Below, in pieces: positions 1 through 57,582 of a DNA stretch of 64,000 nt. This DNA is from Tsuneonella litorea. GTDB lineage: Bacteria; Pseudomonadota; Alphaproteobacteria; Sphingomonadales; Sphingomonadaceae. The notes beneath the pieces are model-generated. The model saw only the letters and a list, made by a program, of their open reading frames with translations, was not told where the DNA came from and ran no database searches. The stretch covers positions 124,001 to 188,000 of the forward strand of contig NZ_JAOAMV010000001.1 in NCBI RefSeq assembly GCF_025154015.1. The letters run 5' to 3'. Every line of letters begins with the position of its first letter. Positions within the stretch are counted from its first letter, which is position 1. A program made the translations under genes and the position numbers.

Positions 1-605
1 GCCAGGGGCTCTATCCGGAGTTCTACTTTTTCGATTGCCACAGCTGCCACCGGCCGATCACCGACGGGCCGCAGCGGCGGCTGACCTTCGAGACCAATCC
101 CGGCCGCCCGATCCCCTTCGCCACTCCGCCGTTCAACGACGAGAACATGATCATGCTCTCGGTCGCCGCGCGCACGCTGGCGCCGGACCAGGCAGCCGGG
201 TTCAACCAGGCCACCGCCGCCTTTCACCGCGCGATGGGACAGGGACGGCCCCAGACCGTCGCCGCCGCCCAGCAACTCGAGGCCGCGGCAGGCGCCTTGT
301 CCGATGCGTTGTCGCGGCGCGGCTATGGGGCAGCCGACGGCTTCCGCGTGGTCGCGGCGATCGCCGACCGGACCACCGCCCCCCGGTTCACCGACTACGC
401 GGGGTCCGCGCAGGCGGTCATGGCGGTCGACACGCTGCTGAACGCGATGGTCCGCGAAGGCAGGGTCACGGTCGGCGCAGCGGCGGGCATCCGCGCGTCG
501 ATCAACCGCGCCTATACCGCGGTCGCCACGCCCGAAAGCTACAACCCGGGCGCGTTCCGGGCCGCGCTTTCCCAGGCGGCCCGCAGCATAGGCGCGCTGC
601 AATGA
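1..605 (+). CDS. c-type cytochrome, C-terminal part (cut by window start)
   Basis: The reading frame is open from base 3 to the TGA at 603-605, so the N-terminus lies outside the window. The visible part is about 200 residues. Near its start is a single heme-c attachment motif, CHSCH, in the setting FFDCHSCHRPITDG; the rest is an alanine-rich, probably helical region without further CXXCH. CXXCH binds heme covalently, so the protein should act outside the cytoplasmic membrane. More hemes may lie upstream. Its stop overlaps the ATG of the next gene by four bases, so the two are probably translated together. Together with the multiheme cytochromes downstream, this suggests a role in periplasmic or outer-membrane electron transfer. 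I do not recognise the exact family. Confidence 0.75.
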   Translation, partial: QGLYPEFYFFDCHSCHRPITDGPQRRLTFETNPGRPIPFATPPFNDENMIMLSVAARTLAPDQAAGFNQATAAFHRAMGQGRPQTVAAAQQLEAAAGALSDALSRRGYGAADGFRVVAAIADRTTAPRFTDYAGSAQAVMAVDTLLNAMVREGRVTVGAAAGIRASINRAYTAVATPESYNPGAFRAALSQAARSIGALQ

Positions 606-2578
606 GGGTATCCCGCCGCACCGGCTGCCTGGCGATCGCGTTGCTGACGCTCGGTTCGTGCGGCGGCGGCGGCAGCAGCGGTTCGGGGGGATCGGCCGCG
701 GCCCCCGCGCCCGCGACGCCCACGACGCCCGCGGCGGTCTACGCCGCCCCGACCCAGGACGCGTTGAGCGTCGCCGAGGTCCAGAGGATCATCGCCCAGG
801 CGGTCGGCGAGGCCGACGCCCGCAAGCGCCCGGCGACGATCGCGGTGACCGACCGGGTCGGCAACGTCCTCGCCGTGTTCGTGATGAACGGCACGATCAA
901 CCGCTCGCTCACCAGCCGCCTGACCGCGACGGGCGTGCTGAACGACAAGGACGTCGATCTCCAGGGCACCAACGTCGATTCGGTGATCGCGGCGATCTCC
1001 AAGGCGCTGACGGGGGCCTACCTGTCGTCGGGCGGCAACGCCTTCTCCACCCGCACCGCAAGCGAGATCGTCCAGTCCAACTTCCCCCCCGCCCCCAACA
1101 CCGTGGGGATCGAAAGCGGACCGCTCTCGGGGGTGCAGTTCAGCCAACTGCCGTGCTCGGACCTCAACACCCGGTTCGTGGCGGGCGGCGGCCCCGGAGC
1201 GTTCATCGGTCCCAAGCGCGCCCCGCTCGGCCTCGCAGCCGACCCAGGCGGGTTTCCGCTGTACAAGAACGGCGTGCTCGTCGGCGGGATCGGCGTCATG
1301 GCGGACGGCGACTACGCGTTCGATACCAACGTGACCGACCTGCTGGTCGACGACGAGGAGGCGATCGCACTTGCCGGGCTGCAGGGCTTCGCCGCACCGG
1401 ATTCGATCGTCGCGGACAGGATAACCGTCGATGGCGTGTCGCTGCGCTACAGCGACATGCGCGTTGCCGACCTGCACCCCCTGAAAAACGACTTTGCGGC
1501 GATCCAGGGCACGATCGGGCTTCTCGTCGGGGTAACCGGCTACAACAACGCGGCGATCATCCCCGGCACGCCCTACGGCACCGAGGCCAGCGGCTATCGC
1601 GCCGCCACCCCGGCGGAATTCGCCTTTCCGGACGCGTTCGTGCTTTCGAACGGCAGCGGCGCGAACCGCTACCCGATCCGCGGCGGAACCGACGCGGGCA
1701 GCGTCGCGCAACCGCTCACCGCCGCCGAATCGCGCGCAATCCTGGAAGAAGCCTACCGGGTGATGAGCCGCGCACGCGCGCAGATCCGCCGGCCGCTCGA
1801 CAGCCGGGCGCAGGTGACAATCAGCCTCGTCGATACCAACGGCAGTGTGCTGGGCATCGTCCGCGCACCCGATGCGCCCATTTTCGGCACCGACGTTTCG
1901 CTGCAGAAGGCGCGCACGGTGACTTTCTTCTCGGGGCCCAACGCGGCGAGCGACCTGCTCGGCAATCCGGATGCCGAAGTCGCCAACTACGTCGCGCGCG
2001 CGCGCACCTTCTTCAACGATACCACCGCCCTCACCGGGAAGTGGGCGTTTGGTGCGCGCTCGATCGGAAACCTCGCCCGACCGCATTTCCCCGATGGCGA
2101 AGCCGGCCGCCCCGAGGGACCGTTCGGGCGCCCGATCGAGGATTTCAATCCGTTCGCCACCGGTTTGCAGGTGGCTCTGATCAAGTCGAACGTGCTCCAG
2201 CACGCGCTGTTCACCGAGGGCAAGCCGTTCAACGACACCCAGCCGCAGTGCACGCTCCTGCCGCCCGCGCCAAACGGCAAGCCGCGGCTGGCGAACGGGA
2301 TGCAGATCTTCTCGGGGGGCGTGCCGATCTACCGCAACGGACAGCTCGTCGGCGGGATCGGCGTGTCGGGCGACGGCATCGACCAGGACGACATGATCAG
2401 CTTCCTCGGCGTGCACAACGGCGGGCAGCGCGTGGGCGCCATCGGCAACGCCCCGATCCCGATGCGCGCCGACCAGATCGTCATCCCGATCGGGGCCGGC
2501 GTGCGGCTGCGCTACGTCAACTGCCCGTTCGCGCCGTTCCTCGACACCAACGACCAGAACGCCTGCCAGGGATTGTAG
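602..2578 (+). CDS. lipoprotein with two GlcG/HbpS-type (heme-binding-like) domains
   Basis: The product has 658 residues. The ATG at 602 is preferred because it overlaps the upstream stop (ATGA) and starts a lipoprotein signal with lipobox LGSC followed by a glycine/serine-rich linker. Two copies of a GlcG/HbpS (DUF336) domain follow. Each ends in the family's signature, seen here as YKNGVLVGGIGV and YRNGQLVGGIGV. HbpS proteins bind heme or sense redox stress and GlcG is of unknown function, so a precise role cannot be given. The lipobox predicts membrane anchoring in the periplasm or outer membrane. Being coupled to a c-type cytochrome gene makes a heme- or redox-linked role plausible. Confidence 0.8.
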   Translation: MRVSRRTGCLAIALLTLGSCGGGGSSGSGGSAAAPAPATPTTPAAVYAAPTQDALSVAEVQRIIAQAVGEADARKRPATIAVTDRVGNVLAVFVMNGTINRSLTSRLTATGVLNDKDVDLQGTNVDSVIAAISKALTGAYLSSGGNAFSTRTASEIVQSNFPPAPNTVGIESGPLSGVQFSQLPCSDLNTRFVAGGGPGAFIGPKRAPLGLAADPGGFPLYKNGVLVGGIGVMADGDYAFDTNVTDLLVDDEEAIALAGLQGFAAPDSIVADRITVDGVSLRYSDMRVADLHPLKNDFAAIQGTIGLLVGVTGYNNAAIIPGTPYGTEASGYRAATPAEFAFPDAFVLSNGSGANRYPIRGGTDAGSVAQPLTAAESRAILEEAYRVMSRARAQIRRPLDSRAQVTISLVDTNGSVLGIVRAPDAPIFGTDVSLQKARTVTFFSGPNAASDLLGNPDAEVANYVARARTFFNDTTALTGKWAFGARSIGNLARPHFPDGEAGRPEGPFGRPIEDFNPFATGLQVALIKSNVLQHALFTEGKPFNDTQPQCTLLPPAPNGKPRLANGMQIFSGGVPIYRNGQLVGGIGVSGDGIDQDDMISFLGVHNGGQRVGAIGNAPIPMRADQIVIPIGAGVRLRYVNCPFAPFLDTNDQNACQGL

Positions 2579-2611
2579 GGCGAACGCTTCGCCGGGCGGC
2601 GCGCGGCGCGG

Positions 2612-3990: not shown

Positions 3991-4072
3991 CGACGTTTCT
4001 CCCCGCGTCTGGTGCGCGTCCCTCCATCGAAGCGGTGGCATTCTCGGCCCTCAGCGAGATTCCGCAAGTTCG

Positions 4073-4084
4073 CAATTGCAATTG
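4073..4084. promoter_or_regulatory. 12-bp perfect palindrome in divergent promoter region
   Basis: CAATTGCAATTG reads the same on both strands and lies in the 140-base gap between the DUF4331 pair (minus) and the beta-barrel gene (plus). Its position would suit an operator for either or both. No regulator is assigned. Confidence 0.3.
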
Positions 4085-4130
4085 TGGCAGATTTTCCTCA
4101 CTTTTCCGAGTGGGAAGGGGCAAAATTCCT

Positions 4131-6002
4131 ATGACTGCCGCGCTGACACTGCTGTCCGCACTGGCTCTGTCCTTGCAGGCGGAGGCCCCGCCGCCCGCCG
4201 CCGAGGCCGATTCGCTGCCCCCCGATGCCACCGACTCGCGGTCCGAGACGATGTCCGGCGAAGCGGGCGATCCGCCGCCCGTCGACAACGAATCGATCGA
4301 CGGCCGGCGCCGCCCCGGGTACGACGCCCCGCTGCCCGACCGCCTGACGCAGGACAACCCGGGCGCGGTGCGCGCGCCCCCGCCCGAAGCATTCCCGACC
4401 GATCAGGTTCCCATCCCCGATCGCTGGCGGCTGATCGAGTCGCTGGGTGTCGTCAAGGAGCGCTGGTTCGATCCCTATCACCAGAACACGCTGAAGGGCG
4501 ACCGGCCGCTCGACCCGGAGAAATGGCCGCTGATCACCGGACACGACTGGTTCTTCTCCGCCAACCTGATCAGCGACACCGTGATCGAACCGCGGACGTT
4601 TCCGATACCCGTCGGGCTGCAGACGACCGAGCGCCCAGGCAGCCTCGACGTGTTCGGAAAGGACGCGAGCTACCTGCTGTCGCAGACCTTCATCGTCGGG
4701 GCCGCGCTGACCAAGGGTTCGACCGCCTTCAAGCCGCCCGAGATCGAGTATCGCCTGGCGCTGGCCGTCAACGTCAATTACGCGAACGTGCCCGAGCGGC
4801 GCGTGCTGCTGGTCGAACCCTCGGCCCCCAGCCACCGGTTCGACCACTTCGTCGGGGTCCAGGAAGCGTTCGTCGACTATCACATCCGCAATACCTCGGA
4901 TCGCTACGACTTCGATTCGATCCGCGTGGGGATCCAGCCGTTCCAGGCCGATTTCCGCGGCTTCCTGTTCAACGACCAGAACCTGGGCATCCGGCTGTTC
5001 GGCAACCGCGACAACAACCGCTTCCAGTACAACCTGGCCGCTTTCTGGCGCATATCGAAGGACACCAATTCCGGCCTCAATGACCTGACCACGCGGCCGC
5101 GCGACGACTGGCTGTTCGTGGCCAACGTCTATCGCCAGGATTTCCTCATTCCCGCGCTGACGAGCCAGGTCACCGTCGCCTACAACATGAACCGCGAAGG
5201 CGACGAGTATTCCGAGGACAAGAACGGGTTCCCGGTGCGCCCCGCGCTGCTCGGCAACATCCGGCCGCGCAACTACGACGTCGTCTACGTCGGCTACAAC
5301 GCCGACGGCCGGATCGGCCGCATCAACCTCACCGCGAGCGCCTACGGGGCCTTCGGAGAGGACCGCTACAACTTCTTCACCGACAAGAGTGCCGTGATCC
5401 GGGCATTCTTCGGCGCCGCCGAATTGAGCTACGACCGCGACTGGATGCGCTTTCGGCTGTCCGGCCTGTGGGCGAGCGGCGATCACGATCCGTATGACAA
5501 TCGCGAAGGCGGCTTCGACGCGGTGTTCGAGAATCCGGTCTTCGCGGGCGCCGACACCAGCTACTGGATTCGCCAGGCGATCCCGTTTGCGGGCGGCAGC
5601 CGCGCGGTTCTGGTCAACGGGCGGAACGGCATCCTCAATTCGCTTCGCTCTTCCAAGGAAGAAGGGCAGTCGAACTTCAATAACCCCGGAACCATGCTGG
5701 TCGGCCTTGGCGCCGACTTCGACGTCCTGCCGACGCTGCGCGTTTCGGCCAACGCCAACCACCTGTGGTTCGAGGACACGATCACGCTGCAGGTGCTGCG
5801 CAACGAGGGTTCGATTCCGCGTGAGATCGGGTGGGACCTGTCGGCCTCCGCGATCTGGCGTCCGTGGGCCAACCAGAACGCGGTTGCCCGCCTGTCCGCC
5901 GCGGCGCTCGTGCCGGGAGCGGGTTTCCGCGACCTGTTCGGCAATTCCAACGGCAACCGGAATTACTACTCGGTGCTCGCCAACGTGGTACTGAGTTACT
6001 GA
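4131..6002 (+). CDS. outer-membrane beta-barrel protein of the cytochrome locus
   Basis: The product has 623 residues. The ATG at 4131 has an AAGGGG sequence upstream and starts a short signal peptide (TAALTLLSALALSLQA). An acidic, proline-rich linker of about 90 residues follows. The rest has alternating polar/hydrophobic segments rich in Tyr, Phe, Asn and Arg, typical of amphipathic strands, and ends in the barrel-like strand VLANVVLSY with a terminal aromatic residue. I see no cysteine motifs. Its TGA overlaps the ATG of the decaheme gene by one base, so the two are co-translated. MtrB-type barrels that encase a decaheme cytochrome are similar in size and context, but no sequence relation to MtrB is evident to me. 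An alternative is an ordinary porin. Confidence 0.7.
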   Translation: MTAALTLLSALALSLQAEAPPPAAEADSLPPDATDSRSETMSGEAGDPPPVDNESIDGRRRPGYDAPLPDRLTQDNPGAVRAPPPEAFPTDQVPIPDRWRLIESLGVVKERWFDPYHQNTLKGDRPLDPEKWPLITGHDWFFSANLISDTVIEPRTFPIPVGLQTTERPGSLDVFGKDASYLLSQTFIVGAALTKGSTAFKPPEIEYRLALAVNVNYANVPERRVLLVEPSAPSHRFDHFVGVQEAFVDYHIRNTSDRYDFDSIRVGIQPFQADFRGFLFNDQNLGIRLFGNRDNNRFQYNLAAFWRISKDTNSGLNDLTTRPRDDWLFVANVYRQDFLIPALTSQVTVAYNMNREGDEYSEDKNGFPVRPALLGNIRPRNYDVVYVGYNADGRIGRINLTASAYGAFGEDRYNFFTDKSAVIRAFFGAAELSYDRDWMRFRLSGLWASGDHDPYDNREGGFDAVFENPVFAGADTSYWIRQAIPFAGGSRAVLVNGRNGILNSLRSSKEEGQSNFNNPGTMLVGLGADFDVLPTLRVSANANHLWFEDTITLQVLRNEGSIPREIGWDLSASAIWRPWANQNAVARLSAAALVPGAGFRDLFGNSNGNRNYYSVLANVVLSY

Positions 6003-9000
6003 TGCGGGCCGATCGCCTCCTCGCGTTGTTCGCGCTTGTCGTCCTCGCCTGCGGGATCGGATGGTCGACCTCGCGGGCGTCCGAGGGCGAGACGCCGGTC
6101 AAGCGCACCTACCCGGTCTACCCGGCCGCGCCGCTGACGCAGACCATCGCCGAGATGGCCGGCAAGAGCGACGGCTGCACCAGCTGCCATGTCGCCAGCG
6201 ATGCGCCGACGATGCACCTGTCGCCTGCCGTTCGCCTGGGCTGCACCGATTGCCACGGCGGCGACGCGGCGGTCGTCGGCAATCCGCAGCTCGACCGCGA
6301 CGATCCGGCCTATGTCGCGGCGCGCGACGCGGCGCACGTGCTGCCCACCTACCCCGAGAGTTGGCACTTTCCGTCCTCGGCGAATCCCAGGCGCAGCTAC
6401 GCCCTGCTCAACAACGAGGCACCCGAGTTCGTCCGCTTCGTCAACCCGAGTGACTACCGCGTCGCGCGCGAGGCGTGCGGGGCGTGCCATCTTCCGGTGA
6501 TCGAGGCGGCCGAACGGTCGTTGATGGCAACCGGCGCGATGCTGTGGGGCGGCGCATCGTACAACAACGGGATCGTCCCTTTCAAAAGCTACATCTTCGG
6601 CGAAGCCTTCACCCGCGAGGGCGAAGCGGCAAAGGTGGTCAGCGCAGGCGACCCGCCCGGCACCGTCACCGAAAAGCAGAAGGACCGCGGCGCGCTCGCC
6701 GCGCTCTATCCGCTGCCTACCTGGCACGTGGTTCCGCCGGCCGACGTGTTCCGTGTGTTCGAGCGCGGCGGGCGCACGATCAATTCGGTGTTCCCGGAGA
6801 TCGGGCTGCCCAACGTCACCGGGCAGATCCAGCGGCTCGACGAGCCGGGCCGCCCCGACCTCAAGCAGTCGAACCGCGGCCCGGGCACGGGACTGCGCGT
6901 GGCCATCCCGGTGCTCAACATCCACAAGACGCGGCTCAACGATCCGTTCACCTGGTTCATGGGGACCAACGATCAGCCGGGCGACTATCGCCATTCCGGC
7001 TGCGCGAGCTGCCACGTCGTCTACGCCAACGACCGCGAACCGCGCCATTCGCTGACCTACGCCCAGTACGGACGCGACGGCCAGACGATTACCGCGGACC
7101 CGACCATCGCCGACAAGTTCGAACACGGGGATGCCCACGGCGACGCGCACGACAAGGGCCATGGCGCGCTCAAGGACGGCCACGAAGGCGCGGAAGGCCA
7201 GGCCGCTGTCCGCGAAAAGGGCCATCCGCTCCAGCACGTGTTCACGCGATCGATTCCGACCGCACAGTGCATGAACTGCCACATGCACCAGCCCAACATC
7301 TTCCTGAACTCGTTCCTCGGCTACACGATGTGGGACTACGAGTCGGACGCGCCGGCGATGTGGCCCGAGACGCAGAAGTACCCGACCGCCGAGGAAGTGC
7401 GGGCGATCAACGCGCGCAATCCGGAGGGCGCTGCGCCCAAGGGCAAGTGGGCGGACATCGATTTCCTGCGCAACGTCTATGACCTCAATCCCAGCCTCAA
7501 GGACACCCAGTTCGCCGATTATCACGGCCACGGGTGGAATTTCCGCGGGGTGTTCAAGCGCGACCGCGAGGGCAACCTGCTGGACAAGGACGGCAACATC
7601 GTTTCGCCCGACGACCCCGAGAAGTGGCGCAAGGACGGCGAAGGCAAGTTCGTTCCCGCAGGCGTCAATCCCGGCAAGACCGTCCACCTGATGGACATCC
7701 ATGCCGAAAAGGGGATGCAGTGCGCCGACTGCCACTTCGCGCAGGATAGCCACGGCAACGGCCTGATCTACGGCGAGGTGGCGAACGCGATCGAGATCGG
7801 CTGCAAGGACTGCCACGGCACCGCCGACGCCTATCCCAACCTGCTCACCAGCGGCCCCGCAGCCCCGCCCAAGGGCAACAACCTGGCGCTGCTCCGCAAC
7901 CCGGACGGCCAGCGCCGCTTCGAGTGGACGTTCGACAGCGCCGGGCGACAGCAGCTCATCCAGCGGTCGATCATCGACCCGGACCTCGAATGGCGGGTCA
8001 GCCTGGTCAAGGACAGCGTCGACCCGGCGAGCCCGCGCTTCAACGCCAAGTCCGCCCGCGCCAAGCTGATGAGCGAGGAGGGTGCAGAGGACGGACTGTT
8101 CTCGTTCGGGCCGGGCATCGCGCCCGAGAACCGTGCGCACAAGGACAGCGAGATGGCGTGCTTCACCTGCCACCTCTCGTGGACCACCAGCTGCGGGGGG
8201 TGCCACCTGCCGATCGAGGCGAACTGGAAGACGACCGATCACCACTTCGAGGGCGAGACCACGCGCAACTTCGCCACCTACAACCCTCAGGTCGCGCGCG
8301 ACGAGATGTTCCAGCTGGGCAAGCACATGACCACCAAGGGCAACCAGACCGCCCCGGTCCGCTCCTCCAGCGCGCTGGTGCTGAGTTCGACGAACATCAA
8401 TCGCGAGCGGATCTACGTCCAGCAGCCGCCCATCAGTTCGATCGGATTTTCCAGCCAGGCGTTTGCCCCGCACTTCCCGCATACGGTGCGCACGACCGAG
8501 ACGAAGACCTGCTCGGACTGCCACCTGTCGGAGAAGGACGACAACAACGCGATCATGGCGCAGCTGCTGCTGCTCGGCACGAACTACGTCAATTTCGTCG
8601 GTCTCAACGCCTGGACCGGCCTGGAAGGCGGGTTCGAGGCCGTGCGGGTGACCGAGTGGGACGAACCGCAGGCGGTCCTCGGCAGCTACCTGCACAAGTA
8701 CGCCTATCCGGACTTCTATCGCGAGTTCGTCGACGATTACGGCCGCGAACTGAAGGACCGTACCCGCGGCCGGACATTCGACGGCAAGGTGTCTGGCGAA
8801 ACCCATTCGTTCGAGCAATTCGCCAACGTCGTGGAGGGCACCCGCGACCGCGTGGGATGCCTCCAGCTGCGCGGCGAGTACATGTTCGTCGCCGAAGGCA
8901 AGGGCGGTTTTCGGGTCTACGATGTCGCGACGATCGCCAACAAGGGCTTCTCCGAAAGGATCGTCACCGCACCGTTCTCCGCGCTGGGCCACGACACCCA

Positions 9001-10021
9001 CGTCTCGTCCAAGAACGCGACGTGCATGGCGCTGCCGACCAACCAGCCGATCGCCCCCACCCGGTCGACACCCGAGATGCGCGAGCTCAACCAGGAGCAG
9101 CCATTCCTGCCGATCTATCACTACGCCGCGGTGACCGACGCCGAGGAAGGCCTGATCCTGGTCAACGTCGACACGATGGCCGACGGCGAGTTCCGCAACA
9201 ACAAGCTGAAGCGCGCGGTCACCTGGAACCCCGACGGGGTGCTCGACGGCGCGCGCCACATCGTGCTCGCGGGCGAGGTCGCCTACATCGCCGCGGCCAG
9301 CGGCCTGGTAACCGTGGACCTGGCCGACCCGCTGAACCCCAGGCTCGCCTCGGTCGTCCCGCTCGACGACGCGCGGGCGAGCGCGATCCAGTTCCGCTAC
9401 CTCTGGGTCACCGATCGTGAGGGGATCAAGCTGTTCGACGTGACCGACCTGCGCAACCCGGTCGCGGTCCCCTCGGGCACCGTGCCGCTAGCGGACGCGC
9501 GGCGGGTCTATCTCGCGCGGACCTATGCCTATGTCGCGGCCAAGGGCGACGGGCTGGTGATCCTCGACGTCGAGAACCCCCGGGATCCGTCGATATACCG
9601 CAAGGAAACCTTCGGCGGGCGGATGACGGACGTGGAGGACGTGGTGGTCGCATCGACCAACGCCTCGCTGTTCGCCTACGTCGCGGACGGGCGGAACGGG
9701 ATGAAGGTGCTGCAACTGACCAGTCCCGACAGCCAGCCCAACTTCTACGGCTTCAGCCCGGCACCCAGGCCCGAGCTGATCGCCTGGGCAAAGACCCCAT
9801 GGCCGGCCATCGCCATGTCGAAGGGTCTCGACCGCGACCGGGCGGTGGACGAGACCGGTGGGCAGATCGCGGTCTTCGGGCGGCTCGGCGCGCGGCCCTT
9901 CAATCGCAGCGAAATGGAAAAGCTGTTCCTCACCAGCAAGGGCGTGCCGTGGAAGGTATCGGATACGCCGGACATGAACCGCTGGGTGGCCGGCAGGGGA
10001 CCGCTCGCCGGCGGCGAGTGA
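6002..10021 (+). CDS. decaheme c-type cytochrome with C-terminal LVIVD beta-propeller
   Basis: The product has 1339 residues with an N-terminal signal (LLALFALVVLACGIGW). Ten CXXCH motifs are readable in order: CTSCH, CTDCH, CGACH, CASCH, CMNCH, CADCH, CKDCH, CFTCH, CGGCH and CSDCH, covering about residues 59-840. A His-rich stretch (HGDAHGDAHDKGHG) lies between hemes 4 and 5 and could supply ligands or bind metal. After the last heme come several LVIVD-type propeller repeats, e.g. GLVTVDLADPLNPRLAS, GIKLFDVTDLRNP and GLVILDVENPRDPS. The heme part should carry electrons and the propeller may bind a partner or surface. Translation is coupled to the barrel gene upstream, suggesting a porin-cytochrome pair. 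The partner and terminal acceptor are unknown. Confidence 0.85.
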   Translation: MRADRLLALFALVVLACGIGWSTSRASEGETPVKRTYPVYPAAPLTQTIAEMAGKSDGCTSCHVASDAPTMHLSPAVRLGCTDCHGGDAAVVGNPQLDRDDPAYVAARDAAHVLPTYPESWHFPSSANPRRSYALLNNEAPEFVRFVNPSDYRVAREACGACHLPVIEAAERSLMATGAMLWGGASYNNGIVPFKSYIFGEAFTREGEAAKVVSAGDPPGTVTEKQKDRGALAALYPLPTWHVVPPADVFRVFERGGRTINSVFPEIGLPNVTGQIQRLDEPGRPDLKQSNRGPGTGLRVAIPVLNIHKTRLNDPFTWFMGTNDQPGDYRHSGCASCHVVYANDREPRHSLTYAQYGRDGQTITADPTIADKFEHGDAHGDAHDKGHGALKDGHEGAEGQAAVREKGHPLQHVFTRSIPTAQCMNCHMHQPNIFLNSFLGYTMWDYESDAPAMWPETQKYPTAEEVRAINARNPEGAAPKGKWADIDFLRNVYDLNPSLKDTQFADYHGHGWNFRGVFKRDREGNLLDKDGNIVSPDDPEKWRKDGEGKFVPAGVNPGKTVHLMDIHAEKGMQCADCHFAQDSHGNGLIYGEVANAIEIGCKDCHGTADAYPNLLTSGPAAPPKGNNLALLRNPDGQRRFEWTFDSAGRQQLIQRSIIDPDLEWRVSLVKDSVDPASPRFNAKSARAKLMSEEGAEDGLFSFGPGIAPENRAHKDSEMACFTCHLSWTTSCGGCHLPIEANWKTTDHHFEGETTRNFATYNPQVARDEMFQLGKHMTTKGNQTAPVRSSSALVLSSTNINRERIYVQQPPISSIGFSSQAFAPHFPHTVRTTETKTCSDCHLSEKDDNNAIMAQLLLLGTNYVNFVGLNAWTGLEGGFEAVRVTEWDEPQAVLGSYLHKYAYPDFYREFVDDYGRELKDRTRGRTFDGKVSGETHSFEQFANVVEGTRDRVGCLQLRGEYMFVAEGKGGFRVYDVATIANKGFSERIVTAPFSALGHDTHVSSKNATCMALPTNQPIAPTRSTPEMRELNQEQPFLPIYHYAAVTDAEEGLILVNVDTMADGEFRNNKLKRAVTWNPDGVLDGARHIVLAGEVAYIAAASGLVTVDLADPLNPRLASVVPLDDARASAIQFRYLWVTDREGIKLFDVTDLRNPVAVPSGTVPLADARRVYLARTYAYVAAKGDGLVILDVENPRDPSIYRKETFGGRMTDVEDVVVASTNASLFAYVADGRNGMKVLQLTSPDSQPNFYGFSPAPRPELIAWAKTPWPAIAMSKGLDRDRAVDETGGQIAVFGRLGARPFNRSEMEKLFLTSKGVPWKVSDTPDMNRWVAGRGPLAGGE

Positions 10022-10036
10022 CCCCCGCTGTGGCGC

Positions 10037-10885
10037 CTACTCGCGCTCGCCGAACATTTCGTGGATCATCGGCTGGAGCTTGTCGGTGTAATGCGCCAGC
10101 GCGTGCCAGCCGCTGACCTGCTCGTAATGGCTGACGAGCGCAGTCCCGTCCCAGCGGTGCAGCGCATAGCTCGGCGGCTCGGTGGTGATCAGGTCGCGCC
10201 CGTCCGGACGATCGGCGTCGACCCGGCGCAGGTCCATCGCCACCAGCGGAGCCACCGATCCGGTGACGTTGAGCGGGATGCCGCAGAACGTCGTGCTCAG
10301 CGGCCGGTGAAGGTGTCCGCAATGGATTGCCGCGATCTGGCGATGGCCCTCGACCGCGCCGCGGAAACGCTCGATCCAGCCTTCGTCCGGCGCGGGATCC
10401 ATCCAGTCGATCCCGCTGACCACGGGCGGATGATGCATGAAGATCAGTGTCGGCGTGTCCGGATGGCCGGCGAGCTGCGCTGACAGCCAGGCGGCCCGGG
10501 CCGCGCAGAACGCACCGCCGTGGCGGCCCGGCTCGAGCGTGTCGAGCATCAGGATGCGCAGGCCCCCGGCTTCGAGGGCATAGTGGATGAAGCCGTCCTC
10601 GTGTGGCACCTGCGGGAACGCGTGGAGCAGCGCTTCGCGGGTATCGTGATTGCCGACCATCGGCCAGACCGGAAACGGAAGGCCGGAAAGGAGCGCCGCC
10701 GCATCCTCGAAACTTTCGATATCCCCGTTGTCGGTGATGTCGCCCGAAAGGACGAGCATATCCGGCCTGTTCGGCCCACCGAGCAACCGGGCAAGGGTCG
10801 CCCGGAACCGGCGCAGGTTGAGCTCTTCGGGTTCCTCGTCGGGGTCGAAGCCGATATGGATATCGGTCAGCTGTGCGATCAGCAT
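10037..10885 (-). CDS. cpdA: class III cyclic-nucleotide phosphodiesterase (CpdA-like metallophosphoesterase)
   Basis: The product has 282 residues. The start at 10885 gives the typical N-terminus LIAQLTDIHIG. All calcineurin-like metal motifs are present: DxH (TDIH), GDITDNGD, GNHD, the HH in FMHHPP, and GHLHRP. This arrangement (DxH-GD-GNHD-H-GHxH) is that of the CpdA/IcaB family, which hydrolyses cAMP or other phosphodiesters with a two-metal centre in the cytoplasm. It is the last gene of the minus-strand group that also encodes a protein with two cNMP-binding domains, so it may lower the ligand of that protein. Substrate specificity cannot be read from the sequence. Confidence 0.8.
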   Translation of the reverse strand: MLIAQLTDIHIGFDPDEEPEELNLRRFRATLARLLGGPNRPDMLVLSGDITDNGDIESFEDAAALLSGLPFPVWPMVGNHDTREALLHAFPQVPHEDGFIHYALEAGGLRILMLDTLEPGRHGGAFCAARAAWLSAQLAGHPDTPTLIFMHHPPVVSGIDWMDPAPDEGWIERFRGAVEGHRQIAAIHCGHLHRPLSTTFCGIPLNVTGSVAPLVAMDLRRVDADRPDGRDLITTEPPSYALHRWDGTALVSHYEQVSGWHALAHYTDKLQPMIHEMFGERE

Positions 10886-10940
10886 TGCGGCCGCCCTGCC
10901 GCGCTTCGCCGCATCCGGCCGCATGGCCCCGCCAGCACGC

Positions 10941-12677
10941 TCACGTCTGCGATTTCCGCTCGTCCGCGTCCTTACCCACGCGGGCCGGCGCCGCATCGCC
11001 CCTCGGGTGGTAGCTGTGGCACATCGCGCAGGTCGAAGGAATCTTGGGCTTGGCCGCACTTTCGCCGAGGTGGCAGGTGCGACAGGTCTTGATCCCCGGC
11101 AGCAGGACATCGGTCGCCGAATCCGATGCCGGGGCGGCGTGGCAGGTCGTGCATTTCTCGCGCTTGTGCGCCTCGTGATCGAACCAGCCGTGTTCGATAT
11201 AGCGTTTCGGCTGGACGACCGGCATCACCCCGTCGCCGCTGGGGAAATGGCATTCGGTGCAGACGCCCCGGGTGGAGAGCATCCGCGAGGCGAGCGGGAC
11301 CGAGGCGCGCTGCGGTGGTGCGAAGTTCCCGTAATAGAGGCCGCCGGGCGAATAGGCTCCCGGTCGCTTGCGCCCGCTGGCGATCGGCCGGCGCGGCACG
11401 CGGTCCGCGGCGGCAAGGTCAGCGCGCATCTGGCTGATGTCCCCGTGGCGCAGGGTTCGGAACGTCCCCCCGACCCTGTCGTAGACGAGGCTGTGGCAGG
11501 ATCCGCAGTTGGTTTCCATGTCGACCGGCTGGAAGCGCACGCCGTCCGCCGTGGGACGGTGACAGTCGGAACATTCGAGGGTCTCGCCATAGCCTTTCCC
11601 GGCGCCCAACCGCCGGGCCATCTGGGCGACCCCTCCGCTGGCCGAAAGGTGCAGTTCGTGCGGGAACTTGAGGCCGTTGAACTCCCGAGGATTCCCGTCG
11701 AGCGAAACCCGCGTCGGCGTCCGGTCACCCTGACCCGTCAGTACCGCGGCCTGGAACTGGGGGTGCGCCTTGCCGAAGTCGGCCGCGTTGCCCAGCGGGG
11801 TCTTCAGCCGCTTGTCCATCGATCCGTGGCAGTCGGCGCAGAACTTCTGCGCGGGCGGCTGCATCCGGCCCTCGCCCTCGTGCTCGGTATGACAATCGGT
11901 GCAGGCCCCCGCACCGGGCTTGTGAAACACGTCCGCGATGTCGCGCTGGACCTGGTCGCCCCAGCTGAGCGGGCCACGCGCGAGCGAGAGGCGGGGTTTG
12001 GCGGAATGATCGCCGATGTCCTCGTGGCAGGTCAGGCAGGCCCCGTCGCGCACCGCGACGAACGGCTGGACGTGACATGCCTCGCAGTTGTCCTCGAGCC
12101 CGTGGTGCGCGAGGCTGAGCTTGCCGGTCGACCAGCTCGCGTCCATCGCCGTCTGGCCGGGCTTGCGATAGTCGGGTTTGACCGGTTCGCGGCCGAGATT
12201 CGTCCAGATCGGCACCGCCAGGAACGCGAGGAAGATCGCGATCAACAGGGCCCAGGCGACCGGGCGCTTGCCGGGCAGCCACGTACTCGTCAGGCGGAAG
12301 CCATGCGTGCCCGCGCCCGCGCCACTTTCGCGCTCTTCCATGCGGCGGACGGTGACTTCGATCTCCTCGCCGGGACCGGCCGCGAAATCGAGGCGGAACG
12401 CGCCCAGCACAAGCTCGGCGCCGCCATCCCTGACAGTCTCGCTCGTGCGCGTGCGGCCGTCGAGCGTGAAGCCGAGCGTGCCCGCGGCCTCGAAGGCGAG
12501 CGCGCGCCCTTCACCGCGGCTGACGACCACGTGATGCTGCTCGACCGCGAGGTCGGGTATCGCCACGTCGTTTTCGGCCGAGCGCCCGATCGTCAGCCGG
12601 TCGCCCGTCACCTCGCGCTCGCGGACGATCTCGCGTCCCGTGGCGGTGGTCTGAATCTGGCGGATACGGAAACTCAT
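10941..12677 (-). CDS. FHA domain - transmembrane - decaheme c-type cytochrome
   Basis: The product has 578 residues. The N-terminal region (about 20-100) is an FHA domain, with GRSAENDVAIPD and a following HH as expected for phosphothreonine binding. One membrane helix follows at about 140-158 (VAWALLIAIFLAFLAVPIW). The rest holds ten CXXCH motifs: CEACH, CLTCH, CTDCH, CADCH, CSDCH, CGSCH, CTECH, CTTCH, CRTCH and CAMCH. The FHA part is therefore cytoplasmic and the hemes periplasmic. The gene sits seven bases after the b-type cytochrome gene, so it likely accepts electrons from that protein and passes them outward. Coupling FHA to a multiheme chain suggests control by protein phosphorylation; no kinase is seen in the window. 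Confidence 0.88.
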   Translation of the reverse strand: MSFRIRQIQTTATGREIVREREVTGDRLTIGRSAENDVAIPDLAVEQHHVVVSRGEGRALAFEAAGTLGFTLDGRTRTSETVRDGGAELVLGAFRLDFAAGPGEEIEVTVRRMEERESGAGAGTHGFRLTSTWLPGKRPVAWALLIAIFLAFLAVPIWTNLGREPVKPDYRKPGQTAMDASWSTGKLSLAHHGLEDNCEACHVQPFVAVRDGACLTCHEDIGDHSAKPRLSLARGPLSWGDQVQRDIADVFHKPGAGACTDCHTEHEGEGRMQPPAQKFCADCHGSMDKRLKTPLGNAADFGKAHPQFQAAVLTGQGDRTPTRVSLDGNPREFNGLKFPHELHLSASGGVAQMARRLGAGKGYGETLECSDCHRPTADGVRFQPVDMETNCGSCHSLVYDRVGGTFRTLRHGDISQMRADLAAADRVPRRPIASGRKRPGAYSPGGLYYGNFAPPQRASVPLASRMLSTRGVCTECHFPSGDGVMPVVQPKRYIEHGWFDHEAHKREKCTTCHAAPASDSATDVLLPGIKTCRTCHLGESAAKPKIPSTCAMCHSYHPRGDAAPARVGKDADERKSQT

Positions 12678-12684
12678 CCCGCCG

Positions 12685-13545
12685 CTACCAGTAGTAGAAC
12701 ACGCTGATCACGTGCGCGGTCAGCGCGCCGAGGAGCGCGACCGTCGCCGGAACGTGGACGTAGAGCCAGATGTCGAGCAGCGCCCGCAGTCGCATCTGCC
12801 GGCGGATCTGGCCAAGCTGCGCGCAGCGGCGCTGGAGCAAGCCGAACACCCGTTCCTCGTGCTCGTCGCGGTCGCGGTCGGCGGCAAAGGCGGCGCGCGC
12901 GCGTTCGGTCCGGCAACCCGGATAGCGTCCGGTGAGCCGGGCGAGGACGCCAGCCCTGAACGCGTCCTGCTCGAGCGCCGCGATGACGAGATCGCTCTCT
13001 TCGCGCGGCAGCGGCTGGGCGGCGCTTTCCAGCTGGCGGTCGATCGCGCCCAGCGCCTCTATCATCTCCTTCTTCGACATGTCGCCGCGATTGGTGCTGA
13101 GTTTTTCGGGGAGGGTGGCATAGACCACGACCCCGTAGATCCCCGAGACGATCACCAGGATCATCAGCGCCCAGGCCAGGGTATGGACGTTCCAGCCCAG
13201 CTGGAACCCGGTGTGCAGGGTGCCGATCACCACCAGCGACAGGCCCAGGTACACGTGCGCAGACGTCCAGGCCTTGAGTGACCAGCGCCCTTCGGTCATC
13301 GCCCGCTTGCGGATGCCGAGCAGCGACAGCCAGACGATAAGCAGGACGCCGAGCGTGCCGAGCGCGTATCCGTACCACGTGCCCCCGTTGGGGCGCGGGC
13401 TGACGTCGGCAAAGGCGTATCCGATGCCGGCCACGATCGACAGCGCAAGCGCGACCTTGAGCCACCGGAAACGCTTGTGGACGAGAAAGCCCTCGTGATC
13501 ACTGGGCCGCTGCGCGCGCCCGTCTTCGCTGGCGAGGCTCGCCAT
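12685..13545 (-). CDS. membrane b-type cytochrome, probably diheme
   Basis: The product has 286 residues. The ATG at 13545 overlaps the upstream stop (TGATG). Five hydrophobic helices are visible: about 28-46, 55-77, 91-115, 119-140 and 255-283. Helix 3 contains HVYLGLSLVVIGTLH and helix 5 HVPATVALLGALTAH, two His-X13-His pairs as used by diheme b cytochromes to hold two stacked hemes between a pair of helices. A soluble loop of about 100 residues rich in Arg and Glu lies between helices 4 and 5. It probably moves electrons across the cytoplasmic membrane, between the FAD/Fe-S protein or quinol and the FHA-decaheme protein next to it. The heme number is inferred, not shown. Confidence 0.72.
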   Translation of the reverse strand: MASLASEDGRAQRPSDHEGFLVHKRFRWLKVALALSIVAGIGYAFADVSPRPNGGTWYGYALGTLGVLLIVWLSLLGIRKRAMTEGRWSLKAWTSAHVYLGLSLVVIGTLHTGFQLGWNVHTLAWALMILVIVSGIYGVVVYATLPEKLSTNRGDMSKKEMIEALGAIDRQLESAAQPLPREESDLVIAALEQDAFRAGVLARLTGRYPGCRTERARAAFAADRDRDEHEERVFGLLQRRCAQLGQIRRQMRLRALLDIWLYVHVPATVALLGALTAHVISVFYYW

Positions 13546-16007
13546 CAGGCGCCGCGCTCCGACTGGCTGACCGCCAGGAACCGTTCGGGACCGACGCGGA
13601 TCGCGGCGCCGGTCGGGCACGCGCGGACGCAGGCCGGCCCGCCCTCGATCCCCGAACACATATCGCACTTGATCGCGACCTTGGGCGCTTCCCTGCCCGA
13701 CGCTTCCGCCTTCTTCTTGCGCCAGGAGTAACTCGCCTCGCCCGGCCCGGGACCAATGCCGAACATCAGCCACGACAGCAGGCCGGGCTTCTTGGGCGGC
13801 CGCGCGTCCATCCGGATCACGCCGTAGGGACAGTTGCGCTGGCAATTGCCGCACCCGATGCAGGTCTCGTCGATGAAGACCTCGCCGTCCGGCCCGCGCT
13901 TGATCGCGTTGGGCGGGCAATCGGCCATGCAGTGCGGGTGCTCGCAGTGCCGGCACGAAGTGGGCACGTGCAGGTGGGCATAGGTCTTGCCCGCCTCGCG
14001 GTCGAGCCGGGAGAGCCCGTCGTGGCTGTCGGCACAGGCTTTTTCGCAGTTGTCGCAGCCGACGCACAGCGTCTCGTCGATCAGCAGCACGTCGGTCGCC
14101 TCGCCGATGCCCTGGTCGACGAGGAACTTGGCGGTCTGCGAATAATAGTCGGCCGCGTCGCCGAAGCTGTCCTTGCGGCTTTCGATGAAGGCGTTGACCT
14201 CGCGCCGCCCGGCCATGTCGGCGAGCGCCTTCTCGCGCAGCTTGGGTTTGCGGTCGAGCAGCTTGACGAAGGCCTCGCCCGGGAAGCGGACCACCTGGCT
14301 CTTGATCGCCGCCTTGACGGTCGCGGTCCGCTTCGATCCGTCGATCACGGCCATTTCGCCGAAATAGGATCCGGCGGGCAGGTAGCTGAGGAACACCGGG
14401 TGCCCGCCGATGTCCTTTTCGACGATCATCGAGCCGCGGCGGATGACGAACACGTCCTTGTCGTCGTCGCCCTCCTTGATCACCACCTCGCCCGCGCGCT
14501 TGTCCTCGACCACGGCGGCATCGGTGATCTCGGCGAGGTCCTCTGGCGTCAGCCCGGAGCCGAACATCTGCAGGAGCTGGCGCTCGATCGAGATGCGGTT
14601 GACCGCGCGCGCCGCGCCCGGCGTCGTCGCGATCAGCTTGAGCGCCGCAGTGCGCGAGAACTCGAGCGCGACCGTATCCTCGGCCGCGCGAATCGTCGCG
14701 CCACGGCGACGGCCCGAGATCAGCCCCACCTCGCCGAAGATCGAGCCCTCGCCGATCGGCACGGTGACCGACGGGTCGGCCGGGTTGACCTCGACCAGCA
14801 CCGACCCCTGCGCGATCGCGAACATCGATGACCCGGGCGCGTTGCGCTCGAAGATCACCTCGCCCTTGCGATAGAAATGCGCCCGCGAATCGATCATCAG
14901 TTCGCGCAGCTGAAGCACCGACAGTTCCTGAAGGATCACGACGGTCCGCCCGAACAGCGCCAGCCACTCGTCGACCGAACGGTTGCCGGGCAGCGGGGCG
15001 AACTTCTCCTCGAGGATCGGTTCGTCGGCCGGCTTGAGCTGGGTGTTCCCGGCGAGGAACTCGATCACGTCGTAACCCTGGTTCATGCAGTGCTTGATCA
15101 GCGGGTAACCCGCCAGCGCACCGATCACGTAGATGCCGGGCTTGGTCGATTCGAACGACGGCGAAAGCGCGGGAAACGCCTCGCGCTCCTCGCTCGTGAA
15201 ACCGACGCCGGCGGCTTCGACGAAGGCGCGCGGCGGTTTCGAGCCCGTACGCGCGATGATCCGGTCGCACCGGATCGATTCCTGCCCGTCGCGGGTTTCG
15301 AGCACCAACTCGCCCGGCTTCACTTCGGCCGGGCTGGTTTCGCGCCGGACGAAGATGCGACCCTCGCTCTCGGCCTCCATCAGCAGCTTGACGTTGGCGC
15401 CCTTCGCGCGGGCAAAATCGGCGCCGCGATTGAGGATCGTCACGACGTTGCCCTGCGCCGGATCGGCGGCAAGGCCGAGCGCGTTCTCGATCCCTGCGTC
15501 GCCCGAGCCGATCACGGTGATGTGCTCGTCGATGTATTCGGTGGGGTCGTCGAGCTGGTACTGGACGTGCGGCAGGTCGGCCCCCGGCAGCCGCAGGAGG
15601 TTGGGGTTGCCCTGCGTGCCGATCGCCAGCACGACCGCCCTGGCCTTGACCGTCGCCCCCCGCTTGAGCGTCAGGGTGAAGTTTCCGGCCTCGCCCTCGA
15701 TCGCCGTCACGTCCGCGTCGAGCATGACCTCGACCTTGTGCTCGGCGATCTGCCGGTCCCAGGTTTCGAGGATCGCCTCGCGCTTGCCGGCGTCGAAATC
15801 GAGGTCGGCGCGCAGGACCAGGTGGGCAGGCGTCGCCATGACGTGCTTGCCCTTCTGGTACTTGAAGATGGTATCGGACAGGTGGTCGGTCTTTTCGAGC
15901 AGGATGTGGCTCATGCCCTTGGCCGCCGCGTGCGCGGCGGCGCTCAGACCCGCGGGGCCCGACCCCACGATCGCAACGTCCACAATCCCCGCTTCGGTTC
16001 CTGCCAT
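13545..16007 (-). CDS. FAD-dependent oxidoreductase fused to two cNMP-binding domains and a 4Fe-4S ferredoxin domain
   Basis: The product has 820 residues from the ATG at 16007, which has a G-rich site before it; an in-frame TTG lies 15 bases upstream. Residues 1-325 form a YpdA/thioredoxin-reductase-like two-dinucleotide fold (GSGPAG near 15, GSGDAG near 167). Two cyclic-nucleotide-binding domains follow, about 355-470 and 480-595, each with a phosphate-binding cassette (FGEVGLISGRRRGAT and FGEMAVIDGSKRTAT) that keeps Glu and Arg. Residues 645-800 carry four cysteine clusters like HycB/DmsB electron-transfer subunits (CVGCDNCEKAC, CRHCEHPHCMADC, CIGCGNCQRNC, CDMC...CVRAC). No signal peptide or membrane helix is seen. 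It is likely the cytoplasmic electron entry of the locus, gated by a cyclic nucleotide. The electron donor is unknown. Confidence 0.87.
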   Translation of the reverse strand: MAGTEAGIVDVAIVGSGPAGLSAAAHAAAKGMSHILLEKTDHLSDTIFKYQKGKHVMATPAHLVLRADLDFDAGKREAILETWDRQIAEHKVEVMLDADVTAIEGEAGNFTLTLKRGATVKARAVVLAIGTQGNPNLLRLPGADLPHVQYQLDDPTEYIDEHITVIGSGDAGIENALGLAADPAQGNVVTILNRGADFARAKGANVKLLMEAESEGRIFVRRETSPAEVKPGELVLETRDGQESIRCDRIIARTGSKPPRAFVEAAGVGFTSEEREAFPALSPSFESTKPGIYVIGALAGYPLIKHCMNQGYDVIEFLAGNTQLKPADEPILEEKFAPLPGNRSVDEWLALFGRTVVILQELSVLQLRELMIDSRAHFYRKGEVIFERNAPGSSMFAIAQGSVLVEVNPADPSVTVPIGEGSIFGEVGLISGRRRGATIRAAEDTVALEFSRTAALKLIATTPGAARAVNRISIERQLLQMFGSGLTPEDLAEITDAAVVEDKRAGEVVIKEGDDDKDVFVIRRGSMIVEKDIGGHPVFLSYLPAGSYFGEMAVIDGSKRTATVKAAIKSQVVRFPGEAFVKLLDRKPKLREKALADMAGRREVNAFIESRKDSFGDAADYYSQTAKFLVDQGIGEATDVLLIDETLCVGCDNCEKACADSHDGLSRLDREAGKTYAHLHVPTSCRHCEHPHCMADCPPNAIKRGPDGEVFIDETCIGCGNCQRNCPYGVIRMDARPPKKPGLLSWLMFGIGPGPGEASYSWRKKKAEASGREAPKVAIKCDMCSGIEGGPACVRACPTGAAIRVGPERFLAVSQSERGA

Positions 16008-16115
16008 GCCACCCCCCGGCAAGACGGTATCATACGCGTGACGCCGCGTTAATCCACCCGCGTTTGCCGGAAAGCGGTCCGCTTGCTAGGCCAGCGCCAC
16101 GGAATGGGGGCGAAC

Positions 16116-52571: not shown

Positions 52572-52623
52572 GCTTTGCGGTTGGGTATTCCGTCACCCCA
52601 CGCCTCGGACCAGGAACACGAAA

Positions 52624-57571: not shown

Positions 57572-57582
57572 CTGAACCGCCT

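Follow-up and report, generated by a model that had tools for sequence, protein, structure and literature searches.

A predicted electron conduit of Tsuneonella litorea with a PCC4-type inner half and a different outer-membrane half

Do the multiheme cytochromes and redox proteins encoded at one end of a 64,000-nucleotide stretch of the Tsuneonella litorea genome (the window, in what follows) form an electron conduit across both membranes and, if so, is this conduit of a known type? Sphingomonads and their relatives are generally regarded as aerobes, and we know of no experimental test either for PCC4, the predicted conduit with which the locus is compared below, or for the family that carries the decaheme cytochrome F.

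Organization of the locus

The locus consists of two operons, A-B-E-F on the plus strand and J-I-H-G on the minus strand, which converge with a spacing of 15 bases between F and G; the coordinates and strands bear out the two convergent gene groups of the original prediction. All of the parts that it had named, a FAD/Fe-S protein, a diheme b cytochrome, an anchored decaheme protein, a propeller decaheme protein and a barrel, were located, whereas the tetraheme protein A and the HbpS-like protein B were missing from its list.

Gene A, which opens the upstream operon, has its 5' part before the window (3' part at 1..605, plus strand; whole gene at 13211-14605 of L001) and encodes an exported tetraheme cytochrome of the Cytochrome_C554 family, with a Pfam match to PF13435 at E 2.8e-10. 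Its stop is overlapped by the start of the next gene, B (602..2578, plus strand), which encodes a predicted lipoprotein with repeated HbpS-like domains (PF03928, three stretches, E 8.4e-23 in Pfam) and a putative lipobox, LGSC, that was spotted by eye. E (4131..6002, plus strand), which encodes a predicted outer-membrane beta-barrel, overlaps by one base with F (6002..10021, plus strand), which encodes an exported decaheme cytochrome of 1339 aa with a C-terminal LVIVD beta-propeller (PF08309, E 1.5e-13 in Pfam). Of the 63 named loci that include 8 kb or more of upstream sequence, 62 have A, B and E ahead of F in the same orientation. Genes C and D (DUF4331; 2612-3990, minus strand) were rejected as parts of the conduit because they lie outside the conserved set, being present in 3/20 family neighbourhoods, all of the same genus, and in 1/80 named loci, that of Tsuneonella rigui, which is probably one of those three same-genus genomes.

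In the second operon, J (13545..16007, minus strand) encodes a cytoplasmic FAD/NAD(P) protein with two cNMP domains and four [4Fe-4S] clusters, I (12685..13545, minus strand) a diheme b-type membrane cytochrome, and H (10941..12677, minus strand) a protein with an FHA-like cytoplasmic domain, one transmembrane helix and a periplasmic decaheme domain. The last gene, G (10037..10885, minus strand), encodes a calcineurin-like phosphoesterase (PF00149, E 1.4e-13 in Pfam) similar to SpdA and cAMP phosphodiesterases, which scored 129.7 bits against the NCBIfam SpdA model, below the cut-off of 400. No G was found in the 20 loci fetched by I match, or in 6/7 loci of another set; it is a regional addition to the second operon in Tsuneonella's family and not a core gene, and its absence from the matches in strong-I loci indicates that the phosphodiesterase is not essential. 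A gene for a CHASE2-cyclase often adjoins the locus in Tsuneonella's family.

Predicted features of the proteins

Four CxxCH motifs were counted in 90/90 A sequences and ten in 103/104 F sequences and 73/73 H sequences, these being tallies of sequences and not of genomes, some of which were fetched twice. Because the counts are nearly fixed in orthologues, the motifs are not due to chance. Two distant relatives of H have nine heme motifs.

J combines a thioredoxin-reductase-like FAD domain (Pyr_redox in Pfam) with cNMP domains in two stretches. Its 16 cluster cysteines are invariant in 68/68 rows of the alignment, and its second Rossmann motif is conserved (G167 and G169 in 68/68, G172 in 66/68), as are R194 and K202 (68/68). 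The cNMP domains retain E426 (68/68), R435 (68/68), E551 (67/68) and R560 (68/68), which we take to be the Glu and Arg of the phosphate-binding cassettes, making these domains candidates for cyclic-nucleotide control. The original prediction had the parts linking the cytoplasm or the quinol pool to the outside; the cytoplasm-to-surface architecture was upheld, whereas quinol entry was not, the flavoprotein family of J pointing instead to NAD(P)H as the cytoplasmic partner.

The membrane protein I has two WX3HX13H motifs plus SGxxG, and the histidine pairs H97/H111 and H264/H278, invariant in 72/72 alignment rows, are its likely heme ligands. Against Pfam, I gave no ferric-reductase match and a cytochrome b561 hit under the cut-off.

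H has a single hydrophobic segment at residues 140-158. Its N-terminus matched Yop-YscD_cpl (E 1.7e-5) and FHA (E 0.007), both under the Pfam cut-offs, and a PDB sequence search with H gave weak hits to FHA proteins, to hydroxylamine oxidoreductases and to a few small cytochromes. In the FHA motif, GR...SxxH, the serine normally contacts phosphothreonine. The alignment of 74 sequences retains GR in 74/74 and the motif histidine in 72/74, and the serine position is occupied by E in 54/74, S not being among the six commonest letters. The FHA domain of the original prediction is thus real as a fold match, but its phosphothreonine-contacting serine is replaced, and H does not show the motif of an FHA-type phosphothreonine reader.

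No family match for E was found in Pfam or NCBIfam, and its profile found no sequence relative in the PDB. The AlphaFold2 model of E has 18 long strands (mean pLDDT 72, pTM 0.73), and the closest PDB folds, in the best 50 of 841 structural matches, were AlgE (E 7.7e-16) and also OprD-type porins. TM scores against AlgE were 0.63-0.70 by target length and 0.45-0.49 by query length, with an rmsd of 6.5-10, at the model pLDDT of 72. E is predicted from the model to be an 18-stranded, AlgE-like outer-membrane beta-barrel, and it may yet be an ordinary porin, which the original prediction had named as a finding that would count against it. The structure prediction for residues 26-925 of F, made with 46 sequences, had low confidence (mean pLDDT 45.5), and neither the F sequence nor the F profile found anything in the PDB.

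Co-inheritance of the two operons

Among 118 genomes, including that of T. litorea itself, F was found in 23, H in 22 and full-length J in 22, and the sole F carrier without H and J (G032) is 67% complete (Fisher p 5e-23 for co-occurrence of F and H, kinship ignored). The original prediction had inferred the links between the parts from gene overlap and order and had named independent distribution of the genes as evidence that would speak against it; the genes are co-distributed, 22 of the 23 F carriers holding both H and J. In 8/22 genomes holding F, H and J the operons are not adjacent: roughly 20-670 kb lie between them, or they are on separate contigs. In two distant genomes the core genes stand in one row on one strand; the gene order is J-I-H-A-B-E-F on one strand in G485, J-I-H-B-E-F-A in G477 and J-I-H-G-A-B-E-F in G059. 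Because the genes are co-inherited even where the operons are apart, and because of these single rows, both operons are one system.

In a 363-genome alphaproteobacterial draw, 26 genomes carried F, all of them within a set of 37 genomes with strong I matches (E below 1e-80) from an overlapping 385-genome draw. This set rests on I, and leaves out the 21 weaker I matches among a total of 58; of eight such loci opened, seven were PCC4-like and one PCC3-like. J and H were sought in 12 strong-I loci (L232-L243), where J was not found in one (L237) and A was not found in six (L232-L235, L242 and L243). Relatives of F were counted in 11/398 genomes of a phylum sample, excluding F-profile hits in G319, G358 and G219, where the match spans only some 45 residues at a heme pair; likewise left uncounted were four hits to J, from other families of the order, that cover the flavin domain alone. 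A scan of species genomes gave at least 593 stretches encoding F relatives, and named F loci come from the cultured bacteria Tsuneonella, Erythrobacter, Sphingobium, Novosphingobium and Sphingomonas; with the patterns used, no F relatives were found in viral contigs. Both operons adjoin each other in, for example, Tsuneonella rigui KCTC 42620 (L076), Erythrobacter cryptus DSM 12079 (L094) and Sphingobium algorifonticola TLA-22 (L080).

Comparison with PCC4 and exchange of outer halves

PCC4 is a predicted porin-cytochrome conduit found in iron oxidisers, for which the proposed direction is inward, from an extracellular donor to the quinone pool, according to He et al. (2017, PMC5566968). Two helices of its membrane protein bear WX3HX13H and a further helix bears SGxxG. 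The same holds for I, and a search with the I profile recovered the membrane proteins of PCC4 with E values between 7e-16 and 2e-21. H aligned with the PCC4 decaheme cytochrome over 201 columns (hhalign probability 99.6%, E 6.8e-25), and J aligned with the PCC4 Fe-S protein over 412 columns (hhalign, E 3e-49), from the cNMP domains on, that is, over two thirds of J. A matched the PCC4 tetraheme cytochrome at E 6e-7 to 8e-11 in 6/7 PCC4 loci. The likeness of H and A to PCC4 rests partly on heme-motif regions. For the outer half, E and the PCC4 porin gave a probability of 0.2%, and F and the PCC4 pentaheme cytochrome one of 7% (both hhalign); the E profile had no match in seven PCC4 loci at E 1e-3, and the pentaheme cytochrome had none in the T. 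litorea genome at E 1e-30. By these sequence comparisons, the inner half (J, I and H, with A less tightly) is homologous to PCC4, and the outer half B-E-F is not. A wholly new conduit, as had been proposed, is therefore not supported.

The gene arrangements also differ in part. The PCC4 Fe-S protein (Fer4_11) is encoded before the inner-membrane protein, as is J, but J is fused to a FAD domain. PCC4 has instead a separate FNR-type redox gene upstream of the tetraheme gene (in 7/7 loci), whose product, with a NAD-binding domain, is unrelated to the thioredoxin-reductase-like flavin domain of J (3/3 scanned); no separate FNR-type protein was found among the ten proteins scanned at the Tsuneonella locus. 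The cNMP domains had been put forward as setting the locus apart; they do not, since the PCC4 Fe-S protein carries them as well (3/3 scanned). In the one PCC4 decaheme sequence compared, a Cys-rich stretch stands where H has its FHA-like domain. The PCC4 cytochromes have four, five and ten hemes; here A has four and H ten, the decaheme F replaces the pentaheme cytochrome, and the lipoprotein B is extra.

The distribution of F and the pentaheme cytochrome over the 37 strong-I alphaproteobacterial genomes was 27 with F only, six with the pentaheme only, two with both and two with neither (Fisher p 3e-4 for exclusion, kinship ignored). In one genome (G846), J-I-H and A adjoin a PCC4-type pentaheme cytochrome and porin. 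The outer halves thus look interchangeable on one inner half. Five genomes (G118, G151, G268, G528 and G704) carry I but lack F and lack the pentaheme at E 1e-30, suggesting that the inner half may serve other acceptors too; of the seven genomes from other families of the phylum sample that carry I, three showed neither. He et al. (2017, PMC5566968) also describe clusters of a cytochrome and a membrane protein that lack a porin. The F-type variant was not found in open-licence PMC full text, a scope that excludes the supplements of that paper, which could list it.

Comparison with other known systems

PCC3 is a conduit that the same paper (He et al. 2017, PMC5566968) predicts in Sideroxydans, Leptothrix and other bacteria. 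A relative of I (E 8e-21) adjoins a 21-heme cytochrome in one locus (L225), which, judged by heme count, is probably PCC3. PCC3 has cytochromes with tens of hemes in repeats, and membership of the Tsuneonella locus was rejected since it encodes no such cytochrome.

As had been predicted, none of the proteins is Mtr-like: no full-length Mtr, Omc, Pio or Ext model was matched in Pfam or NCBIfam. H had a sub-domain hit to domains II/IV of MtrC/MtrF (E 7e-8, 32.6 bits against a Pfam cut-off of 30, about 50 residues), and the hits of A and F to other decaheme and Ext models were weak and far under the cut-offs. Membership in MtrAB, MtoAB or PioAB was rejected, E, F and H lacking a match to MtrA/DmsE, MtrB/PioB or full MtrC/OmcA, and MtrB was not among the best 50 of 841 structural matches to the E model. 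MtrCAB, MtoAB and PioAB may work in a similar manner, a barrel being encoded there with a decaheme cytochrome, as E is with F. MtrB is a 26-strand barrel, and E, with its predicted 18 strands, would be narrower; an NAD(P)H module is, to our knowledge, absent from Mtr systems. F gave a weak local match to ExtM around one heme pair (E 1.3e-18, best stretch 50 residues), scoring 66.7 bits where the model's cut-off is 800, and membership in Ext was rejected.

The J-I architecture resembles that of NADPH oxidases and ferric reductases, in which two b hemes, bound by HX13H pairs, receive electrons from NAD(P)H and flavin, but the flavin part of those enzymes is of another family than that of J. The likeness of the membrane protein to these enzymes is remarked by He et al. 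(2017, PMC5566968).

Proposed mechanism and alternatives

We consider that the genes probably encode a PCC4-related conduit across two membranes, in which electrons would flow from NAD(P)H through FAD, Fe-S clusters, b hemes and a decaheme domain to the outer membrane, tuned by cyclic nucleotides. The cytoplasmic J would pass electrons from NAD(P)H to FAD and on to four [4Fe-4S] clusters, and its two cyclic-nucleotide domains would switch or tune it, the cyclic-nucleotide level in Tsuneonella's family perhaps being set by G and often by the neighbouring CHASE2-cyclase. The two b hemes of I would, like those of NADPH oxidases and ferric reductases, move electrons over the inner membrane to the periplasmic decaheme domain of H, which would be held in the inner membrane. 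A and/or F might bridge the periplasm, and E, F and the lipoprotein B would form the outer-membrane exit in place of the PCC4 porin and pentaheme cytochrome. The best evidence for E-F as this exit is the exchange of outer halves.

It is unlikely, in our estimate, that the same conduit runs in reverse, with electrons drawn from Fe(II) or Mn(II), from a cathode or from another cell entering through E-F and being passed by I to the quinone pool. Such a flow would fit the homology of I, J, H and A to PCC4, known from iron oxidisers, and the HX13H pairs of I, which He et al. (2017, PMC5566968) link to quinone-active b cytochromes. It is less easily reconciled with the NAD(P)-type flavin domain of J, to which an unrelated NAD-binding flavoprotein corresponds in PCC4 loci, and electrons travelling inward to reduce NAD(P)+ should have to go uphill, the membrane being negative inside.

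A further reading, which we regard as rather improbable, is that F, together with A, reduces a small molecule such as an oxyanion in the periplasm or at the surface, with E as the channel for that molecule and J-I-H as the electron supply, and that no electrons are conducted across the outer membrane. The local ExtM match of F would suit this reading, ExtM being a selenite/tellurite cytochrome, as would the resemblance of E to AlgE/OprD-type channels and the three I-bearing genomes of other families in which neither F nor the pentaheme was detected. However, the replacement of the outer half by another porin and multiheme pair fits a shared membrane-crossing task better than the catalysis of one particular reaction, and all ten heme motifs of F are CxxCH; since every CxxC in F is followed by H, the protein lacks an active-site heme motif of the variant kind in which another residue stands there. 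That the two operons have separate functions and are adjacent by circumstance is highly improbable, their separation in some genomes being outweighed by co-inheritance even when apart and by the single rows of core genes in distant genomes.

Conclusions

In the conduit that we favour, the PCC4-type inner half and the cNMP domains are known, and by sequence comparison the outer-membrane half B-E-F and the flavin domain on J are different. It is possible, and we put it forward tentatively, that there is a modular conduit family whose inner half, gated by cyclic nucleotides and fed by NAD(P)H, is combined with non-homologous outer halves, and that sphingomonads and their relatives use it, on a second-messenger signal, to dump NAD(P)H electrons on extracellular acceptors through an 18-strand barrel, far narrower than MtrB, and a propeller decaheme cytochrome. 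The variant is common and present in cultured bacteria, whereas PCC4 is a prediction from gene clusters, and the exchange of outer halves offers a natural experiment on the requirements for an exit through the outer membrane. If the proposal is true, extracellular electron transfer would occur widely among bacteria in which it is not a known trait, and would be fed directly by NAD(P)H under second-messenger control.

Organization of the two operons

The window (G000:C11:124001-188000) is part of a 3.03 Mb genome. The first operon, A-B-E-F, begins upstream of the window, in locus L001, and runs on the forward strand from L001:13211 to window position 10021, with A overlapping B and E overlapping F. 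The second, J-I-H-G, runs on the reverse strand from 16007 down to 10037. The closest named match to F was from Tsuneonella rigui (83% identity) in a comparison that may exclude the window's own record and those very close to it. Adjoining J, at 16113-17009 (+), a domain match identified a TPR protein of the CcmH/CycH type, involved in cytochrome c biogenesis, which could help attach heme to A, F and H, with 24 CxxCH sites between them; such a match was present in 49 of 80 F loci from named organisms.

Two neighbouring short genes at 2612-3990 (-) each carry a different DUF4331 part, the second just below the cut-off; this pair was found in three of 20 family loci, all of the same genus, and in one of the 80 named loci. 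Upstream, within L001:234-13238 (window -13766 to -762), Pfam matches identified a CHAT-domain protein and a CHASE2-cyclase, followed by a 242-aa protein without a Pfam match and then by what we take, by reading, to be a two-partner secretion pair including a 2360-aa repeat protein. Matches to the cyclase occurred in 25 of the 80 named loci, some on the opposite strand and perhaps representing other cyclases. At 51261-62772, G+C drops from about 0.68 to 0.58-0.61, and the genes there include those for a ParB-N/DNA methylase, a CoA-transferase family protein, an SDR, MeaB, a methylmalonyl-CoA-mutase-like large subunit, a B12-binding protein, a GntR regulator and a TonB receptor; this region has the appearance of an acquired island for a B12-dependent acyl-CoA mutase.

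Co-inheritance of the two operons

Among 118 genomes, the window's own included, F (decaheme with propeller) was found in 23, H (membrane-anchored decaheme) in 22 and full-length J (FAD/cNMP/Fe-S protein) in 22, and the three genome sets were identical except for G032 (67% complete), which had F alone. Apart from the window's own genome, 22 genomes have F, and neighbourhoods were fetched for all of these but G030 and G032. In 19 of the 20, A, B, E and F were together; the remaining locus, L026, is cut off by a contig edge. J-I-H-G adjoined A-B-E-F in 13 of the 20 (including G059, locus L170), and in the remaining seven and in G030, J-I-H was found at a different place, about 20-670 kb away or on another contig. 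The phosphoesterase gene G accompanied the distant J-I-H in seven of these eight genomes and was not detected in G040.

Of the 80 named loci, 63 extend 8 kb or more upstream of F, and in 62 of these A, B and E come before F on its strand; 65 extend 8.5 kb or more downstream, and 49 of these also contain H, I and J on that side. In a 398-genome phylum sample, all 11 genomes with F proper had the b cytochrome I, and four more had I without F; in alphaproteobacteria, F was found in 26 of 363 genomes, all 26 among the 37 strong-I genomes of an overlapping 385-genome draw. One strand of G485 carries J-I-H-A-B-E-F, with one additional ORF between A and B, and the order in G477 is J-I-H-B-E-F-A. A-B-E-F and J-I-H are one system.

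The gene set is looser beyond the family of the window's genome. All 12 strong-I loci fetched from other families (L232-L243) included H; J was present in 11, E and B in seven, A in six (one weakly) and G in none, some of these loci being cut by contig edges. In L190 (G268) and L191 (G151), a single fusion protein of about 1120 aa combines J and I, and a 9-heme H comes next.

Conserved features of the proteins

Heme motifs were counted in orthologue sequences out of 109 loci, with some genomes entered twice. Four CxxCH motifs were present in all 90 sequences of A, a tetraheme protein of the cytochrome c554 family, and ten in 103 of 104 sequences of F (the remaining one has eight), in which an LVIVD propeller follows the hemes. 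All 73 H sequences had ten, with an FHA-like N-terminus and a single hydrophobic segment at 140-158. The GR and H of the FHA-like domain are kept and the serine is not, and therefore no phosphothreonine control is claimed.

In I, H97/H111 and H264/H278 were kept in 72 of 72 alignment rows, and the two WX3HX13H motifs were exact in 70 of 71 orthologues; in the text of He et al. 2017 (PMC5566968) this signature marks the inner-membrane proteins of the predicted conduits PCC3 and PCC4 and is read as a diheme b cytochrome. J has an FAD GxGxxG and a second Rossmann motif, two cNMP domains retaining the phosphate-cassette Glu and Arg, and, in all 68 alignment rows, the 16 cysteines of four [4Fe-4S] clusters. 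B has HbpS-like repeats and a lipobox seen by eye, and SpdA is the nearest model for G.

E is predicted to form an 18-strand barrel, most similar to AlgE in fold comparison. MtrB, the known sheathing barrel, is larger, and the narrow predicted barrel is the weak point of the conduit reading: F may lie beneath or beside the barrel, a slim part of F may be inserted, or E may be a substrate channel.

Relationship to PCC4 and other conduits

Weaker I-profile matches led to seven loci (L224 and L226-L231), which are PCC4 as assigned by gene content, not by accession. All seven encode a decaheme protein, a cNMP/four-cluster Fe-S protein, a membrane protein and an FNR-type flavoprotein; the tetraheme and the pentaheme were each found in six and the PCC4-type porin was detected in five. 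This content corresponds to the published PCC4 gene set, which comprises cytochromes of 4, 5 and 10 hemes, a porin, a membrane protein and an Fe-S protein (PMC5566968).

The I profile matched the membrane proteins of these loci at E 7e-16 to 2e-21, J from its cNMP domains onward is related to the Fe-S protein (hhalign E 3e-49), and H is related to the decaheme (hhalign E 7e-25; HMMER E < 1e-3 in five of seven loci). The relation of A to the tetraheme was weaker (E 6e-7 to 8e-11), because all are members of broad c554/c7-type heme families. By hhalign, E was unrelated to the PCC4 porin (probability 0.2%) and F to the pentaheme (probability 7% over 25 columns). Under a strict definition the present system is not PCC4, having no pentaheme and a different porin; it is a sister variant with the inner half in common. 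cNMP domains were found on all three scanned PCC4 Fe-S proteins (L224, L229 and L230), and He et al. do not use the phrase "cyclic nucleotide" in their main text (PMC5566968). The PCC4-type decaheme at L229:10321-12714 has, instead of an FHA-like domain, a Cys-rich stretch ahead of its hydrophobic segment; several of these Cys are kept in an alignment of the seven PCC4-type decahemes, and the stretch is perhaps metal-binding.

Family models do not place the system in Mtr or Ext, and it lacks the long repeat cytochromes of PCC3. In L225 (G718), a relative of I adjoins a PCC3-like 21-heme cytochrome, with an FAD + Fe-S protein about 4 kb off; the membrane protein family of I seems to serve a third conduit type. 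No earlier description of the present variant was found in the main text of open-licence PMC articles.

Exchange of outer halves

F and the PCC4 pentaheme were looked for at E 1e-30 in the 37 strong-I genomes of alphaproteobacteria. F only was found in 27, pentaheme only in six (G550, G558, G598, G609, G735 and G846), both in two (G645, and G512 with each a short piece at a contig start) and neither in two (G528, 86% complete, and G704, in about 450 contigs), a distribution with a Fisher p of 3e-4, not corrected for kinship. In four of the six (G558, G598, G609 and G846) the pentaheme and I share a contig and are no more than about 6 kb apart; in G846 the pentaheme adjoins J-I-H and A together with a PCC4-type porin, and in G609 no J was seen at the locus. 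Outside alphaproteobacteria, G477 carries F, in G269 the contig ends after B and E with F not found, and G118 and the fusion-bearing G151 and G268 have neither F nor pentaheme at E 1e-30. An inner half of single ancestry is paired with two outer halves unrelated to each other, and in some genomes neither was detected. The near-complete G645 (99%) carries its F and PCC4-type pentaheme on contigs C2 and C5 and is a possible intermediate of the exchange.

Proposed mechanism

Because both system types contain NAD(P)-binding flavoproteins, of unrelated families, NAD(P)H is most likely the cytoplasmic partner and would act as the electron source. The two b hemes of I, on its HX13H pairs, would span the inner membrane, and electrons would move outward from NAD(P)H. 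Flow in this direction would agree with the membrane potential, and the reverse would be uphill. In the family of the window's genome a phosphodiesterase (G) is encoded in the same operon as J, and matches to the CHASE2-cyclase upstream occur in 25 of the 80 named loci; the two intact cNMP domains suggest control of J by cAMP or cGMP.
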